The translations under genes were made by a program, and so were the position numbers. A stretch of DNA of 43,062 bases from Candidatus Poribacteria bacterium (lineage in GTDB: Bacteria; Poribacteria; WGA-4E; PCPOR2b), in NCBI GenBank assembly GCA_022822005.1, contig JAJECO010000015.1:1-43062 (forward strand). Direction: 5' to 3'. Position 1 is the stretch's first letter. Each line of letters starts with the position of its first letter. The notes below the pieces were generated by a model. The model saw only the letters and a list, made by a program, of their open reading frames with translations. It was not told the DNA's origin and searched no databases. Below, piece by piece: positions 22,810 to 32,771 of this stretch.

Positions 22810-23970
22810 TTAATCGTCTGATTGCTCACGGAACTGTTGAGGGTGTGTCAACTCGGCTGTCAATGCCTCAATGGACTGACTGAGTACTAAGTCTTCCTTG
22901 AGCAGCGCTTCGATCCGTTGGCAGCTTCGCACAACTGTTGCCCGACTCTGTCCGAATCCTTGATTGATTTCTTTCAATGAGAGCGGGGTCAATTGACGTG
23001 CAAGGTACATTCCGACTTGTCGAGGGAGTACAAACCGCCGTCCGCGCTTTCGGGAACATAGCTCTGACAAGGTGAGGTGGAAATACCGGGCAACGGCTTC
23101 CTGAATATGTTCGAGCGTGATTGTGTCAGATGGGGGTCGATCCGGGGTTTTACTCTCTAACACATGATGAACAGCTTGGAGCGTCAAGGGGGATCCCAAA
23201 CGTACCTCTGCCATCAGTCGGTTGAGCGCTCCTTCAAGTTGACGAATGTGCTGTGTTAGATGCTTTGCCAAATAACGGAGGACTTTCAACGGTACGGGTC
23301 CAGAATCACGTTCTTTTAATTTCTGCTTCAGAATCGAAACCCGCAAATCAAACTCTGGTGCAGAAATTTCAACGGCGCGCCTCTGCGTGAGACTATCGGT
23401 CGATCTCCAAAACTCCTGCAGAAATTGCGGCAAGCGATCGCAGGTGCATACGAGCCGTTGACCCCGTTCACTTAAGCAGTTGAGTAGATGGAAAAACTCT
23501 TCTTGGATCTTTTGTTCTGGCGATAAAAATTGAATATCGTCAATTAGCAAAAGATCTACGTGCCTATACTGGCGCCGCAGTGCGGCGGCTTTCTGGGGGG
23601 TGGCAATGGATCGAAGCCATTCACGCATAAACGCCTCTGCTGACGAGCAGTACACCGTGCGATTCAGCTGCCCCTGGCGGAATTGGTTCCCAATTGCATG
23701 TAACAGGTGGGTTTTACCGAGTCCGACACCTCCGTGTATGATCAATATGCCTTCCATTTTTCCAACCCCATTCGTCAAGCTTTTTGCTGCGTCGAACGCT
23801 TCTTGATTGCTTTGCCCAACGACGAACCGATCAAAGGTTAGCGCTGGATTCAGTCCTGAGTTGGCAGGTAGACGCGGTGCTGAAGTTGGTATACCGGTAG
23901 GTAATTCGGCTGGCTGGGATGCTGGAGACTGGGAAGAACGATCATCGCTGCCGCCGTTCGAGTGATTCAT
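22810..23970 (-). CDS. DnaA-like AAA+ ATPase, divergent, lacking domain I
   Basis: This 386-aa relative of the replication initiator DnaA starts with a short serine/proline-rich tail (residues 1-40) instead of domain I. The AAA+ core has Walker A GGVGLGKTHLL (residues 80-90) and Walker B LLLIDDIQFL. Domain IV is present (RQVGMYLARQLTPLSLKEI), but the box-contacting loop reads GFGQSRATVVRS where typical DnaA has FGGRDHTTVxHA, so the Asp-His-Thr triad is lost. It may bind a different site, act as a DnaA paralogue, or be this lineage's own initiator. AGGA lies 9 nt before the ATG. Era is upstream on the same strand. Confidence 0.85.
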   Translation of the reverse strand: MNHSNGGSDDRSSQSPASQPAELPTGIPTSAPRLPANSGLNPALTFDRFVVGQSNQEAFDAAKSLTNGVGKMEGILIIHGGVGLGKTHLLHAIGNQFRQGQLNRTVYCSSAEAFMREWLRSIATPQKAAALRRQYRHVDLLLIDDIQFLSPEQKIQEEFFHLLNCLSERGQRLVCTCDRLPQFLQEFWRSTDSLTQRRAVEISAPEFDLRVSILKQKLKERDSGPVPLKVLRYLAKHLTQHIRQLEGALNRLMAEVRLGSPLTLQAVHHVLESKTPDRPPSDTITLEHIQEAVARYFHLTLSELCSRKRGRRFVLPRQVGMYLARQLTPLSLKEINQGFGQSRATVVRSCQRIEALLKEDLVLSQSIEALTAELTHPQQFREQSDD

Positions 23971-25182: not shown

Positions 25183-25207
25183 AAAAAAAGCGATGTATTG
25201 ACATCGC
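25183..25207 (-). terminator. Intrinsic terminator of the proteasome cluster
   Basis: Read on the minus strand, GCGATGT (25207-25201), a 4-nt loop and ACATCGC (25196-25190) form a perfect 7-bp stem followed directly by seven Ts (25189-25183). It stands about 55 nt after the PafA-like stop and separates the proteasome cluster from era. Confidence 0.85.
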
Positions 25208-25262
25208 CTTTTGGCTGATTCAGGTCTCTCTTTTATTTTAAAGTCTTCTGTGTTTCCTTGTC

Positions 25263-26723
25263 TCATTCTCGTCTTAACCGGATGCGTGTCTGCCTTGAAA
25301 CCGGGCGGGGCTGTTCGCTTAATCGCTTCAACAGTTCTTCGACCTCCGCATCGTAGGTATCGAATGGATCTTTCATTTCAAAGGGTTCTTCGTGCGAAAA
25401 ATAGATCTGATTCCAATCGATAATACAGGGCAAGCGATTCTGAGACAGATAGCGCATTACATAGGAGCGGGCTTTTGCCCTTGTATTTTCAGGGGCATTT
25501 CGGATTGCCGCCTCAATCTGTTCATCCGTTGTCACCCGTCTCACATGTCCTTCGCGTTCAAGTTCGTAAAACAGTCCCTTCTCGCTGTTAAGGTGGTGGT
25601 ACTCAAGATCGAGACTCTCGATCCACGGATCATCCCACTGCAACCCTTCCTCTTCCATGAAAGCCTCAAGCAGCCATTTCTTTGTCACCCAATCGACGCG
25701 ATCGATTAGACGTTCTGGGTCTGCTTCCAAGTCGTCCAGAACCGCTTCCCATTCGGTCAATACCCAGTCCGTATCTTCATCCCTGCCTGCTAAGACTTTC
25801 TGGGCGAGATCGAGGTATTCACGCTGTAGATCTATCGCTGAGATGGTGCCGCCAGAAGCCAGTTCGACAATCCACTGGAATGACTGATCGCGTGAGATAT
25901 CTTTAATATCGTGCACCGGGTTGACTAAGCTCATATCGCGGGGACGATGCCCGTCCTCAAGAAGATCAAGTATCAGCGAGGTGGTTCCAACTTTCAAAGC
26001 CGCTGCAAATTCGGACATGTTGGAATCGCCGACAAGCAGATGGAGGCGTCGATACTTGGTGTAGTCGCCGAGCGGTTCGTCCCGCGTATTGATAATCGCT
26101 CGGCTGAACTGTATCCACTCGTAGATTTCTGTGACGATGTGATCCGCGCGCTGAGAGATCTGAAAGCCCACGAAATCGTCCCGTCGATGGTGGGAATCCC
26201 CGAATTCAAGAATCTCTTCGTGTCCACCAACACGCCCCGCACCAGCAAAAATCTGTCGTGTGACAAAGAACGGGAGCAGCGTAGGAATGACGACTTTGTA
26301 GAAGGGAACGTCCCGCCGGAGTTGATAATTTTCATGGCAGCCGAAAGTCGCTCCGGTAAAGTGATCGATGTTGTTTTTGAAGAAGGAGATATCGTCTTTC
26401 AGCCCGACATCGTCGAGGATTGTGATGATTAGCTGCTCGATGGCTCTATCGTAAGCGATCAGATCGAAGAGGCTGATACACTCCGGCGTGGCATACTCAA
26501 GATGGCCCATGTCGATGTAAAGCCTACCACCGTTGAACAGAAATCCGCCGTTGCCGGGCGGTTCTCCCCAATCTCGGTAGTGCATATCCGACATGCCAAG
26601 TTTTAGCTCGTGAAAAATATAGTCTCTCACGAGCGCAGCTGTCCCCTCCGAAGAGCCGAGAGAGCCGTCCGAGTCTGCCATGCATCCGAATTCGGTTTCT
26701 ATACCAAAAATACGTCTACTCAC
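25263..26723 (-). CDS. pafA: Pup/UBact-protein ligase PafA-like
   Basis: This 486-aa enzyme of the glutamine-synthetase-like PafA/Dop family would join the C-terminal glutamate side chain of a Pup-like tag to target lysines using ATP. It begins with the ATP/Mg2+ motif RRIFGIETEFG. Asp71 in RLYIDMG matches the catalytic aspartate, and FKNNIDH, GCHENY, FVTRQI and TRDEP are conserved. The C-terminal KDPFDTYDAEVEELLKRL is PafA-like, and the long N-terminal Dop loop is absent; both favour ligase over Dop. The start is GTG with GAGG about 11 nt upstream. It follows the alpha subunit gene after a 104-nt gap and ends the cluster. Confidence 0.9.
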   Translation of the reverse strand: MSRRIFGIETEFGCMADSDGSLGSSEGTAALVRDYIFHELKLGMSDMHYRDWGEPPGNGGFLFNGGRLYIDMGHLEYATPECISLFDLIAYDRAIEQLIITILDDVGLKDDISFFKNNIDHFTGATFGCHENYQLRRDVPFYKVVIPTLLPFFVTRQIFAGAGRVGGHEEILEFGDSHHRRDDFVGFQISQRADHIVTEIYEWIQFSRAIINTRDEPLGDYTKYRRLHLLVGDSNMSEFAAALKVGTTSLILDLLEDGHRPRDMSLVNPVHDIKDISRDQSFQWIVELASGGTISAIDLQREYLDLAQKVLAGRDEDTDWVLTEWEAVLDDLEADPERLIDRVDWVTKKWLLEAFMEEEGLQWDDPWIESLDLEYHHLNSEKGLFYELEREGHVRRVTTDEQIEAAIRNAPENTRAKARSYVMRYLSQNRLPCIIDWNQIYFSHEEPFEMKDPFDTYDAEVEELLKRLSEQPRPVSRQTRIRLRRE

Positions 26724-26739
26724 TGTTTTTTTGCCTCAG

Positions 26740-26759
26740 GGACAAACTGGGGTTTGTCC
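26740..26759. other. Hairpin between prcA and pafA
   Basis: GGACAAAC and GTTTGTCC form a perfect 8-bp stem with loop TGGG. On the minus strand it is followed not by a T-run but by the GAGG ribosome site of the PafA-like gene, so it is not a standard terminator. It could slow transcription, protect mRNA ends or affect PafA translation; none of these is shown. Confidence 0.5.
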
Positions 26760-26770
26760 GTATTCGTGTT

Positions 26771-26798
26771 AGGCTCATATAAAAAGAGGGTGCAAAGC
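26771..26798. repeat. 28-bp dispersed repeat inside the proteasome cluster
   Basis: AGGCTCATATAAAAAGAG followed by GGTGCAAAGC matches 13562-13589 at 27 of 28 positions. It lies between the alpha subunit and PafA-like genes and shows that a mobile or repeated unit reached this operon. Confidence 0.7.
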
Positions 26799-26827
26799 AC
26801 AAACGATTTCTTAACATGAGTGTCGTA

Positions 26828-27622
26828 TCAGAGCCAGTCTGCGATGGCCGTATCAATTTCGTCCGAAGTCAAAAGTCGAAACTTGCTATTGGTCCGACGC
26901 GAAGTTTCCAATACTGCCCCTTCAATTTCTCCTGTCTGCAATTCGTCTCTAAGGACTTCGTGTAGCCGTTCTTTGTCCGTGGTCAATTCCGAACCTTCGT
27001 TTGCGTCCTCATCTGAATCAGCGTCCGCTTGTTGCAATCCCAACTCCCAACCAACCACCCAAGTCTCTAACGCCAACTGCAAGGAATCGGTGAGCGAAGA
27101 CCCGGACGTGTCAGCGGCAGACAGGTAATTCTGCATCGCCGTTTCGGCTTCGTGGGTGCCGCCGATAACTTCCCTATCTGGATTCGATTGTAGGGTGCCA
27201 TCATAGTTCAGGGCGACAAATCCATCTCCCTCACCGCGCACACCGAGTTCCGCCATCAGCATTTTAATGATGTAGGCGGAGCCAAAGATGGCTTCAAAGG
27301 ATTGCTTGATAGTGGGTCCCAGCACGAAATTTGTCAGGCGATGGAGGGTAACGTCATCAACTGAGCTCTGAAAACCTTGCACGGATGCGGTGTCAGTTGC
27401 CATCATGCGCAGCCGTTCAATATCGGCACTATGTCCTATAGCTGAGAGTGCGATTCGGTCATGTACCTCAAAGGTTTTACGCTGTCCTCGTCCAATGGTC
27501 ACAAGTAAAAGACCATCTTCATATCTTAGCCCGACAACGGGGCTGCCACCGCGAAGCTGGTCTTCGATATAGTCGCGTCGGTTATTAACGGCTTCAAGCC
27601 ACCGATATGGTTCATCTAGCAT
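26828..27622 (-). CDS. prcA: 20S proteasome alpha subunit
   Basis: This 264-aa protein has the alpha-type N-terminal region (YRWLEAVNNRRDYIEDQLRGG), then the proteasome fold with SPVVGLRYEDGLLLVTI and HDRIALSAIGHSADIERLR. It lacks an N-terminal catalytic Thr and would form the outer gate rings. The C-terminal 50 residues are acidic (DADSDEDANEGSE) and longer than a minimal core, ending IADWL. Its ATG overlaps the end of the beta gene by 11 nt, which implies translational coupling. Assignment rests on the adjacent beta gene as well as on the fold. Confidence 0.88.
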   Translation of the reverse strand: MLDEPYRWLEAVNNRRDYIEDQLRGGSPVVGLRYEDGLLLVTIGRGQRKTFEVHDRIALSAIGHSADIERLRMMATDTASVQGFQSSVDDVTLHRLTNFVLGPTIKQSFEAIFGSAYIIKMLMAELGVRGEGDGFVALNYDGTLQSNPDREVIGGTHEAETAMQNYLSAADTSGSSLTDSLQLALETWVVGWELGLQQADADSDEDANEGSELTTDKERLHEVLRDELQTGEIEGAVLETSRRTNSKFRLLTSDEIDTAIADWL

Positions 27623-28421
27623 AGGTTGTCTCTACAGATTCAGCATAAATCTCTTGGAGTCTTTCGACAGAGAGATCTTGAATTCCGTCCTTCGTAATTG
27701 TTTTTACGGTTGGATAGATATTTGATTTTGGGTTATAGCCGCTCGTTGCTGAGTCATATTCTGCCGCTGCATCGAGTAGGCGCAAAACGGTAACAGTGGC
27801 TTCTTGTTCGTCCATATCAGCAAGTGGTTTCTCGCCCCAACGGTTCTGATAGAACAAGATCCCGCGAATCCACACAGAGCCGGATCCAGAGGTCGCAAAA
27901 TCGGCACTCTCGAAGTGGGCACCAAGTGCGTCATAGAAAAAGATTTTGCCGCCGTTTTCATCTTCGTTCAGCAGGTCGTAGACCGCAAAGATCGGTATCA
28001 CGCCCCCGATACCTTGCAATGTCATAGGCAGGTTTTCGCGGATTAGGCGGGACAGTGTGCGCAGTTTGCCTTCGAGGCTCAATTCTTGGAGTTGGCTTCG
28101 GCGGAAATATTGGAACGAATGTTCGAGGACACGCGCCATTTCATAAGCCATGGCAGGAGAGCCTGCGATCGCGAGGACGGAGTGCTCGTCAATCTGGAGC
28201 AGCTTGTCCGCGCGGTCATACATGACGACATTACCCGCCGTTGCCCGTCGGTCTCCGCCGATGAGGACGCCATCCTTATAACGCACGGCAAGGACAGTGG
28301 TGCCTTCTGTTTCTTGTATGGCAGGCGCAGCCCCATTTCCAGATGTTGCGGGAAGATCCAGTTGAATCTGGCACTCGTTCGCTTTCAAGAGGTCGAGGAA
28401 ATTCCCCTTGTGATTTGTCAT
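27612..28421 (-). CDS. prcB: 20S proteasome beta subunit (catalytic)
   Basis: This 269-aa precursor of an N-terminal threonine hydrolase has a propeptide of about 40 residues ending EGTTVLAVRY. Cleavage between Gly40 and Thr41 would free the nucleophile. The catalytic partners keep the canonical spacing: Asp57 (position 17 of the mature chain) in GGDRRATAG and Lys73 (position 33) in RADKLLQI. SGSGS is also in place. It starts 3 nt after the UBact stop, and its ribosome site AGGTGAG is made of the last UBact codons. It overlaps the alpha gene at the 3' end. Confidence is high. Confidence 0.95.
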   Translation of the reverse strand: MTNHKGNFLDLLKANECQIQLDLPATSGNGAAPAIQETEGTTVLAVRYKDGVLIGGDRRATAGNVVMYDRADKLLQIDEHSVLAIAGSPAMAYEMARVLEHSFQYFRRSQLQELSLEGKLRTLSRLIRENLPMTLQGIGGVIPIFAVYDLLNEDENGGKIFFYDALGAHFESADFATSGSGSVWIRGILFYQNRWGEKPLADMDEQEATVTVLRLLDAAAEYDSATSGYNPKSNIYPTVKTITKDGIQDLSVERLQEIYAESVETTYAR

Positions 28422-28424
28422 GGG

Positions 28425-28622
28425 TTACTCACCTGTTCGTTGGCGATAACGCCTGGATTGGTCTTTATCGACGCGGCGCATCCGTCTAACCAGATTTCTC
28501 GTGTCCGGTCTGGTGACGTCCGGACGTTTGGGACCGTCATCGTCTCCGCCGTCGTCCGGTCCCGTCGGTTTCACCGGTCTTTGAATCCGATCGCGTAGAT
28601 AAATCAAATGTTGTGCTGTCAT
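28425..28622 (-). CDS. ubact: UBact: Pup-like protein modifier ending in Gly-Glu
   Basis: This 65-aa, highly polar, probably disordered protein has an Asp/Gly/Pro-rich middle (GPDDGGDDDGPKRPDV) and a basic C-terminal third with RRMRRVDKDQSRRY and final RQRTGE. I recognise the arginine-rich tail and the terminal Gly-Glu as the pattern of UBact, described in Gram-negative phyla as a Pup counterpart. Because the last residue is already Glu, no deamidation by Dop is needed before ligation. Three internal lysines (18, 32 and 53) could accept chains. AGGAGG precedes the ATG. Its place between dop and prcB is where Pup or UBact is expected. Confidence 0.9.
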   Translation of the reverse strand: MTAQHLIYLRDRIQRPVKPTGPDDGGDDDGPKRPDVTRPDTRNLVRRMRRVDKDQSRRYRQRTGE

Positions 28623-28659
28623 GGTAATAACCTCCTGTAAGAGAATAGATTTGGGGGTT

Positions 28660-30183
28660 TTATTTGCTAAGTTCTAAATTTTCAACTAACGCTTCAACCG
28701 TCTGCGATTGGTCGAGGATGCGATTGTACTTTTCTGCCATCTCTGCATCCGCGAGTTGATTCATGCTCACCGAAACCGGGCTTCTTTTGCCCTTTAGGTT
28801 GAACGTCACGTTATCCCATTGGATCGATTTGACTTGTGGACGGAATTTGTCCAACGATTTGCCTCGAAAATATGCACGGGTATCGGCAGGTGGATTGTGG
28901 ATAGCGCTTTCAATTTGCTGATCGGTGACAAGCCTGCGCACCAATCCGCTCGCTTCAAGTTCATAATATAACCCCGCCTCCTGATCGATGTTGTGATATT
29001 CGAGATCGAGGCTCTGTAGCCATGGGTCGTCCCAAGTAAGCCCTTCCTCATCAATAAACGTTTCCAATAGCCATTTCTTGGCGACCCAATCCAACCGATC
29101 TGCGAGATCCGTAGGGTCTTTTTCGAGCGCATTGAGAGTAGATTCCCACTCAACGAGGACCCAGTCGGTATCGTCGCGTTCTCCGTTGAGGTGCTTTTGG
29201 GCGAGAGCAAGATATTCTCGCTGCAAATCGATTGCGGAAATACTCTTACCGTTGGCTAACTTGAACCGCCACTGGTAGGTCTGGTCACGGGAGATTTCCT
29301 TAATTGCGTGGAGTGGGTTTTGCAAGGCAAACCAACCGGGGACGCGCTTCTGCTCAATAAGATTGATGACGAGGGCGGTTGTGCCGACCTTGAGCGCTGT
29401 CGCGTACTCGGACATATTGGCGTCACCGACAATACCGTGTAGCCGACGATATTTTGCGGGATCTGCGTGTGGCTCGTCGCGCGTGTTCACAATCGGACGG
29501 TTGTGCATGGTATCGACGCTGACCTCGACATGGAAAAAGTCGGATCGTTGTGCAATCTGGAAAAAACCGGCGGAGGTTAATCCTGATTCGGTTTCGATTC
29601 CCACCTTTCCCGTCCCGGCAAAGATCTGTCGTGTCACAAAAAATGGCATGATACCCGCTTTAAGGTCATCAAACGGAATGTCCCGCGACATTAGGTAGTT
29701 GTCGTGGCAGCCGTAGCTGTGGCCATGGAAGTCGGTGTTATTTTTGTACAGTAGAACACGCTTGCCTAATTTTTCGCTTCGTCTTACCGCACACTGCTGA
29801 AGTATGCGTTCTCCCGCTTTATCGTGGGCGACCAATTGAAAAAGGCTGCAACATTCTGGGGTGGAGTATTCGGGGTGGGCGTGGTCGTTATATAAACGGG
29901 CACCGTTGGTCAGGATCAAATCGCTTTTGATCTCAGCGAAGGAAAGATTACGCTGGCGATCGGCTTTCTGGTGTTCCAACTCGTCGGGGTGTTCCTGCAA
30001 GGCTTTTGCACGGAACCCGCGCTCGTCTTGGAACGGGTCTTCGCTGCTATAATCCCACATCGGTCGAAAATCGTCCTGCCGGTAACTCTTAATTAATTCG
30101 ACAGATTGATTGACGGGATCAACGTGTTCCTCTGACTCTAACGTGATTCCGTATTCGGTTTCGATTCCAAAAAGTCTTTGCAT
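28660..30183 (-). CDS. dop: Dop-like depupylase/deamidase homologue
   Basis: This 507-aa PafA/Dop family member starts MQRLFGIETEYG. It carries the long insertion typical of Dop at about residues 40-85 (WDYSSEDPFQDERGF) that PafA lacks. Asp100 in RLYNDHAHPEYS is the catalytic aspartate, with GCHDNYLMSRDIPF, FFVTRQIFAGTGKVG, NTRDEPHAD and ADTRAYFRG following. In Pup systems Dop deamidates the C-terminal Gln and removes tags; here the tag ends in Glu, so removal is the likely main role. It begins 12 nt after the ATPase stop and ends 37 nt before the UBact start. Assignment as Dop rather than PafA rests on the insertion and C terminus. Confidence 0.92.
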   Translation of the reverse strand: MQRLFGIETEYGITLESEEHVDPVNQSVELIKSYRQDDFRPMWDYSSEDPFQDERGFRAKALQEHPDELEHQKADRQRNLSFAEIKSDLILTNGARLYNDHAHPEYSTPECCSLFQLVAHDKAGERILQQCAVRRSEKLGKRVLLYKNNTDFHGHSYGCHDNYLMSRDIPFDDLKAGIMPFFVTRQIFAGTGKVGIETESGLTSAGFFQIAQRSDFFHVEVSVDTMHNRPIVNTRDEPHADPAKYRRLHGIVGDANMSEYATALKVGTTALVINLIEQKRVPGWFALQNPLHAIKEISRDQTYQWRFKLANGKSISAIDLQREYLALAQKHLNGERDDTDWVLVEWESTLNALEKDPTDLADRLDWVAKKWLLETFIDEEGLTWDDPWLQSLDLEYHNIDQEAGLYYELEASGLVRRLVTDQQIESAIHNPPADTRAYFRGKSLDKFRPQVKSIQWDNVTFNLKGKRSPVSVSMNQLADAEMAEKYNRILDQSQTVEALVENLELSK

Positions 30184-30195
30184 AAACGCTTCACC

Positions 30196-31947
30196 CTAAA
30201 TCACGCTGCTCGCAGCTTTTCTGCGCGTTGATTTTTCTGGACGGATTGGGGTGACTTTGACGACGTTTTCTGGGTCGTAATCGAGCAGCTTAAGCCAATC
30301 CTCGACGGTGTCTGTCGGGGGGAAGATATCGTTCTCGCGATATTCTGACAATGCGCCTTCCAACAGGTCCTCAACCCGAATGCCAACCCCATCTGTGGTG
30401 CCTTCTATCGCACGTTTGATTGCGGACTCTTTTGCGCGTTGGACAATGGAATCGACAATAGCGCCGCTACATAGATCGCCACGGTATATAGTATCGCGAC
30501 GGCCGCTTCGGAGGGCGACCTCCAAGAACCTGTTGTCTTCATTCCGTTGGAACAGTTCATCGGTGACCTGATCAATGAGATAGGAGACTGCTGCCTCTGC
30601 ATCGCCGTTATGAGCATCAAGGACTTCTGGGTGGAGCGGTAAATCTGGTGTGAGATAAATGCGGAAAATCGCCTGCGATGCTTCTTTATCGGGACGGGTG
30701 ACTTTAATCTTCCTATCAATTCTGCCGGGGCGTAAAATCGCGGGATCAATAAGATCGGGACGGTTCGTCGCAAGGATGATTACGACATCTTGCAAGGACT
30801 CAATCCCGTCCATTTCAGCACAGAACATCGGGACTACGGTATTGGAGATGTTATGAGAGCGGAATGAACGGCGCGTTCCTAAGATCGATTCTGCTTCGTC
30901 AATAAATACAAAGGGTAGGTAACCTTCTTTGCTCTTTTCACGCGCTATCTGGAAGATTTCACGGACTTTGCGCTCCGACTCGCCAAGCCACATATTCAAG
31001 ATTTCGGGTCCCTTGATGTGGAGGAAACACCCTTCCACATCAGCCCCTTCCTCTTCGCTCAAGCGTTGTGTCAGATTGTGCGCTGTCGCCTTCCCAATGA
31101 GTGTTTTTCCACAACCCGGTGGGCCGTGTAGGAGAAAACCTTTTGGGGGCGCGTATTGAAATGTATCGAAGAGTTCTGGATGTAAAATAGGAAGTTCGAT
31201 GGTATCTTTTATGAGTTCAATGGTATCGTCTAATCCGCCTACCTTCGACCAAGGCAGATCTGGCACGGCTTCGAGGTAGTAGTCCTGTGCTTCTTGTATT
31301 TCTAAGCGTTCTAGTGCCACTTTGGAGTTCGGGTCCATGCGGATTTCGTCGCCGACTTTAAGTTTTGCATTGGCTAAATCGGTGGAGCGTTGCAAAATAA
31401 TCGATTGCAATCCAGCGGGTTCACCGCCAACACGCAGCCGCCCGTCAGGCATCAGATCAGCGATTTTCGCGATAGATCCAGAGGTGTTATATCCCAATTC
31501 ACCGACGATAACGTAAGCGTCATTAAGGAGTACACTAAAGCCAATTTTGAGGGCTGCGGGATCCAGTTGTGGGTCAATATTTGCATAGTATTCGGATCCA
31601 CCGATAATGACGTGAGCAACCTCCTTTTTCGGCATTCCGAGCAGCGTCCCGATCCGGTTCGCAGGGGAGGTCAACTTTTCGATTGTCTCCTGCATTTCGA
31701 CGATGGCTTCCCTCGCTTCTTGGAAGGTCATTTCATCTTCCACAATTGCCCGCCGAAGTTGAAACAGCAATGGTCGCCGGCGATCGTCCTCTTGGGTCGC
31801 ATAAATAAGCCGATCCACTAACATCAGGGAACGAGGGGTGCCCACCTGATCCTCATCGTCTTCAATTTCGTCCTCAAAGTCGTCAAATAGCCGGAAATCG
31901 TCTTCTGGTATCGTCTCAGGTCGCCTTCTATCGTTCTTGTCACGCAT
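30196..31947 (-). CDS. arc: Proteasome-associated AAA+ ATPase ARC/Mpa-like
   Basis: This 583-aa unfoldase would recognise the tag and thread substrates into the proteasome. Order: an acidic N-terminal tail; a coiled coil at about residues 55-95 (FQEAREAIVEMQETIEKL), which binds Pup in Mpa; OB-fold region 100-215; AAA+ domain with Walker A GPPGCGKT (275-282), Walker B FVFIDEAES (346-354) and RPGRIDR (406-412). The C terminus ends AASSVI rather than the Q-Y-L type tail with which Mpa docks on the 20S. ATG at 31947 is preferred because GAGGAGGGG is 4 nt upstream; a longer ORF from 31962 would run through that site. First gene of the cluster. Confidence 0.92.
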   Translation of the reverse strand: MRDKNDRRRPETIPEDDFRLFDDFEDEIEDDEDQVGTPRSLMLVDRLIYATQEDDRRRPLLFQLRRAIVEDEMTFQEAREAIVEMQETIEKLTSPANRIGTLLGMPKKEVAHVIIGGSEYYANIDPQLDPAALKIGFSVLLNDAYVIVGELGYNTSGSIAKIADLMPDGRLRVGGEPAGLQSIILQRSTDLANAKLKVGDEIRMDPNSKVALERLEIQEAQDYYLEAVPDLPWSKVGGLDDTIELIKDTIELPILHPELFDTFQYAPPKGFLLHGPPGCGKTLIGKATAHNLTQRLSEEEGADVEGCFLHIKGPEILNMWLGESERKVREIFQIAREKSKEGYLPFVFIDEAESILGTRRSFRSHNISNTVVPMFCAEMDGIESLQDVVIILATNRPDLIDPAILRPGRIDRKIKVTRPDKEASQAIFRIYLTPDLPLHPEVLDAHNGDAEAAVSYLIDQVTDELFQRNEDNRFLEVALRSGRRDTIYRGDLCSGAIVDSIVQRAKESAIKRAIEGTTDGVGIRVEDLLEGALSEYRENDIFPPTDTVEDWLKLLDYDPENVVKVTPIRPEKSTRRKAASSVI

Positions 31948-32255
31948 TGAACCCCTCCTCAAACGGGATAATCAGTCGTATTGGATGGTATTTCAGAATT
32001 AATCTCTTCTGCCGTAGGGAAAGCGCGGGAAGGTTTCCCTAAAAAAATATTCTTAATACGGAGCATTCAGTTGCTTACATTTCCTTGAATAACCGGTTGA
32101 GTGAGATAGTAACTGTCGTTAGAAAGAGAGTTGCGTCAGACCGGCTGAGAGCTTGGATGCCCAAGGCAAATCGGGAAATGGGCGAGAAATGAGAAAATGT
32201 TAGCTGGCAAAAGTATGGCATCTATCAAATCGCTCATCATGTTAAGTATGTTTGT

Positions 32256-32284
32256 ATTCTATCACATCGGTAGGCAAACATCAA
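32256..32284 (-). promoter_or_regulatory. Candidate promoter of the proteasome cluster
   Basis: On the minus strand TTGATG (32284-32279) and TAGAAT (32261-32256) are 17 nt apart. The start would fall near 32249, giving an untranslated leader of about 300 nt to the arc ATG. It is the best match found by eye upstream of arc; a closer promoter is not excluded. Confidence 0.45.
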
Positions 32285-32368
32285 CACAAAAAGTGGAGCT
32301 TCCCCACGAGGACCGTTCTTAGGCGTTGAAAATTTCCGGCAAAAAGCTGAATCAACCGTTCATAATTA

Positions 32369-32397
32369 TTGCCTTCCCCTGCTAGTTTTGGTATAAT
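32369..32397 (+). promoter_or_regulatory. Candidate promoter upstream of radC
   Basis: TTGCCT (32369-32374) and TATAAT (32392-32397) are 17 nt apart. The predicted start lies about 370 nt before radC, with a repeat element in between, so the link to radC is uncertain. Confidence 0.45.
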
Positions 32398-32444
32398 CTG
32401 CCTTACATTTTTCCACTTTAAATGAATAAGATATCCTAAATATG

Positions 32445-32607
32445 CCTAAGTTGCTAGTTGTCAGACTTGCTCGGCTTGGATAGACATATCCAAGCCATCC
32501 TTATACGTATACAGTGGATTTGTCAATCCACTGCGAGCGGTGATGGTCTCTATTCAGTGTCCATTCTTCTGTTCCATGACATTTTTCATAAATAGCAACT
32601 TGCGTTA
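32445..32607 (-). repeat. MITE-like element with 70-nt double hairpin, copy 3
   Basis: The element is bounded by CCTAAGTTGCTAG on the left and TAGCAACTTGCGTTA on the right, an inverted pair. The double-hairpin core (32469-32538) is inverted relative to copies 1 and 2. The GGCTTGGATA stem is perfect; the other has one unpaired end base. It shares both termini with the copy at 38158-38325. Confidence 0.85.
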
Positions 32608-32771
32608 AATACAGTAAATCCTAAAAACAGATTAGGTATGGTAGGCGCTGTTTCCAACTGCGCCGATGCGGTTCGTCTTCTCCCCATCCCTACCGGGTTT
32701 GAGGGCAATGCAGTTCGGTTTGGAGTGTCTCATTAATTCTAAGATCTACTTTAGTTACTAAGGCGGTGATA

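Follow-up and report, generated by a model that had tools for sequence, protein, structure and literature searches.

A UBact-proteasome operon and a second, Pup-type set in the genome of a Poribacteria bacterium

In the known chemistry of the bacterial tag-proteasome family, a tag is ligated via its terminal Glu and removed by Dop, and the ARC ATPase captures it ahead of breakdown in the core. So far, UBact has been seen as the counterpart of Pup in Gram-negative bacteria, with hardly any biochemical work on it, and the UBact-proteasome system of Gram-negative bacteria was reportedly described by Lehmann et al. in 2017 (BBRC 483:946). The naming of UBact is dated to 2017 (cited in PMC12751074). 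According to Barandun et al. 2012 (PMC3511204), Leptospirillum ferrooxidans has two complete sets, L1 and L2, in the same gene context and of very different sequence, and the L2 tag is without the terminal GGE. A 2020 phylogeny (PMC7947786), which used a single Dop and a single PafA from each genome, makes no mention of Poribacteria. A limited search by title and abstract returned no paper apparently about a proteasome or pupylation system in Poribacteria, which is not proof of novelty.

We analyzed a stretch of 43,062 nucleotides, here called the window, that contains a six-gene operon of this family. With the known UBact-proteasome system (PF20513, NF033388) the operon shares the tag model, the -RTG[EQ] end, and the gene set and order, and we see no essential difference. 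The Pup-proteasome of Actinobacteria and Leptospirillum is also alike in gene order, enzyme families, catalytic residues, and a small tag with a C-terminal Gly-Glu/Gln. However, the window tag is basic and lies outside the Pup model, the window ATPase ends in -VI rather than GQYL, and the window ATPase, beta, alpha, and PafA proteins fall under the curated Pup-type cut-offs. The member of the Pup-proteasome family in this genome is a different cluster, on contig C54. The UBact operon alone is of a known kind, and the interest of the finding is its pairing with Pup. As far as the available sources reach, what is added to the known UBact system is a Pup set nearly always present alongside it in Poribacteria and Nitrospirota. 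The Leptospirillum twin, as reported in 2012, concerned one species and predated the naming of UBact, whereas the pairing here is phylum-wide and extends to most of the UBact-bearing Nitrospirota sampled.

The UBact operon of the window

The features of the operon are as follows.

25183..25207, minus strand: intrinsic terminator of the operon, with an 8-bp stem, a CAAT loop, and a T7 tract
25263..26723, minus strand: PafA-type ligase (U type), 486 aa, net charge -37; PF03136 2.5e-140
26828..27622, minus strand: 20S proteasome alpha, 264 aa, divergent; TIGR03691 2.7e-20, PDB PrcA 8.5e-11
27612..28421, minus strand: 20S proteasome beta, 269 aa, with a propeptide of ~40 residues; PF00227 3.8e-24, TIGR03690 175 bits
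28425..28622, minus strand: UBact tag, 65 aa, net charge +6; PF20513 8.8e-19, NF033388 1.6e-20
28660..30183, minus strand: Dop-type depupylase (putative UBact remover), 507 aa; PF03136 3.6e-173, TIGR03688 509 bits, above the cut-off
30196..31947, minus strand: ARC/Mpa-type AAA+ ring ATPase (U type), 583 aa; Pfam AAA 2e-32, Prot_ATP_ID_OB_N 1e-14, OB_C 6e-11

The initial annotation had proposed six UBact-proteasome genes on one strand, ending in an intrinsic terminator, with every expected part present and the catalytic Thr/Asp/Lys intact, and all of this was borne out. The six genes occupy 25263-31947 of the minus strand in the order ARC/Mpa, Dop, UBact, beta, alpha, PafA, and Pfam/NCBIfam profiles identify a proteasomal AAA ATPase, UBact, 20S beta, 20S alpha, and two members of the Pup-ligase family. 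From ARC to PafA, the intergenic gaps are 12, 37, 3, -11, and 104 bases, the negative value being an 11-base overlap of the alpha and beta reading frames. The ARC start is the ATG at 31947, with GAGGAGGGG just upstream; the longer TTG start in the list of open reading frames would overlap this Shine-Dalgarno sequence. The UBact gene likewise has an upstream Shine-Dalgarno sequence, AGGAGG. About 55 bases downstream of the PafA stop lies the terminator hairpin, GGCGATGT-CAAT-ACATCGC followed by T7 and spanning 25207-25183, the fold of which (-15.2 kcal/mol over 61 nt; z -2.3) is better than that of 194/200 shuffles, with 6/200 as good. A terminator consensus scan alone gave no excess of terminators. 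The gene arrangement is far beyond chance because further Poribacteria loci and about 50 Nitrospirota loci show the same order.

Around the operon, no match to Rfam families and no tRNA was found in the window. Some 800 bases (31963-32765) between the operon start and a divergent radC are gene-free and without an Rfam match. A DnaA-like protein of 386 aa (22810-23970, minus strand) is without the usual N-terminal region; its match to the DnaA model begins at position 99 and scores 326 bits, just below the cut-off.

The tag is identified by both UBact models, at 67.5 bits against a cut-off of 27.8 (Pfam) and 73.1 against 35 (NCBIfam), and matches neither of the Pup models PF05639 and TIGR03687; the 65-aa protein thus fits the profiles on which the initial reading depended. 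It ends in -YRQRTGE. Given that the terminal Glu is already encoded, deamidation would be unneeded. The ending YRQRTG[EQ] holds almost throughout the UBact loci compared, the last residue being Glu in every Poribacteria row read and Glu or Gln in Nitrospira. In the latter, even closely related genomes can differ in having Glu or Gln here (loci L031-L081), and this switch is a natural comparison for the role of Dop as a deamidase. One earlier expectation has to be amended: the remnant left on lysines had been given as Gly-Glu, whereas the predicted trypsin remnant of the window tag is Thr-Gly-Glu. Calculated from the sequences, the predicted mass shift is +287.11 Da for the UBact remnant, TGE, and +243.09 Da for the Pup remnant, GGE.

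Of the window set, only Dop and UBact reach their NCBIfam cut-offs, and the other members were identified by additional evidence. The ARC protein scores 475 bits with TIGR03689 (cut-off, 505) and matches Mpa in the PDB at 2e-113; it combines a helical N-terminal region of acidic character with two OB domains and an AAA module, and its C terminus is -SSVI, not GQYL. The beta subunit matches Rhodococcus beta in the PDB (1e-33), and its Thr1/Asp17/Lys33, which had been called intact, are present in the alignment and invariant in 68 rows. Alpha is weak in Pfam (7e-4, under the cut-off). Its AlphaFold model has a pLDDT of 89, and the top Foldseek match is the M. tuberculosis 20S proteasome (TM-score of 0.73 by query and 0.88 by target); this resemblance of the predicted fold settles the identity of alpha. 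All catalytic residues tested in the operon proteins are present.

Both PafA/Dop-like proteins fall in the Pup-ligase family rather than in other carboxylate-amine ligase families. The window Dop has the Dop loop, the conserved Trp, and the catalytic Asp; in the alignment, the Dop-loop Trp occurs in all Dop rows and in zero PafA rows, and the catalytic Asp is conserved. The window PafA has the catalytic Asp/Glu/Arg/His and is assigned as the ligase because the Dop loop is missing. In NCBIfam it scores 366 bits as PafA (cut-off, 551) versus 356 as Dop, below both cut-offs. In the tree it groups with the U-type PafA proteins of Nitrospirota (support of 100); a single PafA clade that includes actinobacterial PafA was not recovered, yet it was not rejected (AU p 0.23). 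The earlier ligase call holds as to family and the absent loop; with near-equal PafA and Dop bits and this AU result, orthology to actinobacterial PafA is a possibility.

A Pup-type set in the same genome, and the pairing in two phyla

Pup_ligase, Proteasome, and Pup profile searches of the window's own genome revealed a second complete tag-proteasome set (C54:94595-101219; locus L125, 6596-13220, minus strand), the gene order of which is identical to that of the window: ARC, Dop, Pup, beta, alpha, PafA, on one strand. Its proteins are an ARC of 606 aa ending in -GGAYL, a Dop of 496 aa, a Pup of 65 aa ending in -IQRGGE, a beta of 295 aa, an alpha of 236 aa, and a PafA of 452 aa. The pup gene (C54:97690-97872), between dop and beta, encodes the sole PF05639 match in the genome (61 bits versus a cut-off of 27), and the ARC, with its GQYL-like tail, scores 729 bits versus 505. 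The ATPase, Dop, beta, alpha, and Pup proteins exceed the NCBIfam cut-offs; PafA is just under. Since this Pup and the window UBact both end in Glu, the deamidase step of Dop would be unneeded for either tag in this species. The models support the reading of the window operon as a UBact-proteasome system, but in this genome UBact does not take over from Pup. The same genome also encodes HslV (C87:40478-40987; locus L126), which, besides the two 20S sets, makes three proteasome-fold proteases in one genome.

Could the second set be an assembly or binning error, in an organism that has UBact only? In its favor, the draft to which the window belongs is in 97 contigs, and its contamination is estimated at 2.8%. 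However, both full clusters occur in six single-contig Poribacteria chromosomes, with the tag genes 0.85-1.2 Mb apart, and for the phylum this excludes contamination as the source. The PafA and Dop copies also show nearly the same within-phylum branching, and G+C is 0.508 versus 0.505. We give this explanation almost no credence.

The window operon belongs to a known family and is nothing unusual within it: among 85 Poribacteria genomes, UBact is present in 76, Pup in 78, and both in 71. The only two of these genomes with neither tag are those whose shared classification goes no deeper than the phylum. Searching species genomes for Dop yielded 29 loci in Poribacteria and about 50 in Nitrospirota, and nearly all that were long enough have the order ARC-Dop-tag-beta-alpha-PafA. 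In an even draw of 148 Nitrospirota genomes, 53 have UBact, 66 have Pup, 47 have both, and 6 have UBact only. That is, Pup accompanies UBact in 47/53 UBact-bearing Nitrospirota (Fisher p 1e-16, with genomes counted as independent and relatedness uncorrected). Searches of viral contigs found no relative. Co-occurrence, like gene content, gene order, and catalytic residues, is here a direct observation.

In Nitrospirota, the second cluster was found in all 15 loci read, with pup displaced from it in 12. In these Nitrospira-type loci, the other Pup-cluster genes are in place, except for an unrecognized alpha in L233. The pup gene lies outside the cluster in L204-L207, L209-L215, and L218-L221, at a distance of roughly 35-75 kb where the contig is shared. 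An orphan Pup in Nitrospira, with no enzymes within 7 kb, had been considered and was rejected, as the genomes hold a full second cluster elsewhere. Three genomes (G024, G030, and G066) have only two Pup_ligase genes each, which fits the loss of a whole set at once, although gaps in the drafts are possible. In L066 (4142-13218), Dop-UBact-beta-alpha-PafA pieces occur twice in tandem after a single ARC; either the locus was duplicated or the assembly may be wrong. At the protein level, the end of Poribacteria Pup varies between GGE and GGQ, whereas UBact there ends in Glu in every row read.

Separate lineages, opposite charges, and different ATPase tails

Eight clean and well-supported clades were recovered when 66 PafA and Dop sequences were placed in one tree, in which PafA and Dop each divide into a U (UBact) and a P (Pup) type, each with a Poribacteria half and a Nitrospirota half. 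Within Poribacteria, branching is nearly alike for the U and P copies of PafA and Dop. For ARC, beta, and alpha, a fully supported branch divides the U from the P proteins; some of the groupings within are weak, and the beta and alpha trees contain branches flagged as long. With Actinobacteria represented by one genome (Nonomuraea), these quick trees are read without a root or a direction of transfer; by the AU test, the PafA/Dop split may be either older or younger than the U/P split. The U and P clades do not mix across the two phyla, the sets share 28-44% identity, and the two tags are without detectable BLAST similarity.

The tags are opposite in charge in 18/18 genomes, UBact ranging from +3 to +8 and Pup from -6 to -22. 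U-type PafA is more acidic than P-type in 17/17 paired genomes, and U-type Dop in 15/16 pairs, the exception being the window's own genome (-23 versus -29). ARC follows the expected direction in 12/16 pairs, hardly so in Nitrospirota; its N-terminal part, which by analogy to Mpa should be the tag-binding region, is mostly -9 to -15 in U-type and -6 to +4 in P-type proteins of Poribacteria, with a small contrast in Nitrospirota. Whole-protein net charge only roughly reflects that of the tag-binding groove. Five columns in PafA and Dop are charge-swapped, and we draw no claim on the tag groove from them.

Do these observations still leave room for one pathway with two tags, in which both kinds of ligase and ATPase feed a shared core pool and the second set adds redundancy or dosage but no specificity of its own? 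The two sets do not differ in the alpha pocket Lys or in any beta catalytic residue, and the apparent whole-set losses noted above are what redundancy would allow. Yet the divergence of the sets, the dissimilar tags with opposite charges, and the unmixed clades all speak against a common pool, and retention of both sets in most Poribacteria genomes is unexpected under simple redundancy. We consider a shared pool unlikely.

The ATPase tails differ as well. U-type ARC proteins end in -VI, -II, or, once, -IV, with a penultimate aromatic residue in none read, and P-type tails are -[YF][LF]. In mycobacteria, GQYL is needed for docking on the core (PMC8755798; PMC12288473). The alpha Lys equivalent to M. 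tuberculosis PrcA Lys52, which pairs with the ATPase tail, is present in 67/67 rows and thus conserved in both U and P core types. Because this Lys is kept, the -[VI]I end would most simply be a different docking code. We also weighed whether the UBact set mainly tags and unfolds, with degradation secondary, the U-type ATPase perhaps not docking stably and instead remodeling tagged targets as in Corynebacterium, a genus that lacks the 20S core. Such a role would fit the absence of the penultimate aromatic from every U-type tail read, the requirement of GQYL for core opening in mycobacteria, and the pupylation without proteolysis of Corynebacterium (PMC12288473). In contrast, alpha and beta are encoded in the same operon, the beta catalytic triad is intact, the alpha pocket Lys is in all U-type rows, and the conserved hydrophobic end itself suggests a docking code of its own; we judge a primarily remodeling role highly improbable. 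The clades, charges, and tails described in this section are likewise observed directly.

Two channels in one cell

In total, the genome encodes two complete tag-proteasome systems, that of the window among them, and we think it probable that they operate as largely separate channels in the same cell; activity, expression, and insulation between the channels are what we infer. In this model, the PafA-type ligase would join UBact via its terminal Glu directly to target lysines, as the PafA family suggests, and the Dop-type enzyme would take it off. The ARC ring would capture the tag, unfold the target, and feed it to the 20S core, where beta Thr1 would cut, and the C54 set would handle Pup by an equivalent route. 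The basic UBact would be served by more acidic enzymes and the acidic Pup by less acidic ones, each ATPase having its own C-terminal code for docking on the core. Given that the alpha Lys is conserved in both core types, an ATPase tail might dock on either core, and cross-talk or mixed cores between the two sets could conceivably occur.

That the pairing holds phylum-wide suggests degradation along two parallel routes within a cell. More broadly, Poribacteria and many Nitrospirota may have two insulated channels, with opposite-charge tags, cognate ligases, erasers, and ATPases, and distinct docking codes, such that UBact would be a companion of Pup and not its Gram-negative replacement; on this wider proposal our judgment is evenly balanced. 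If UBact is nearly always found beside a complete Pup system, then why are there two tags and two proteasomes, and what separates them? The tag remnants on lysine should differ in mass, and both modified proteomes should therefore be readable from one sample.
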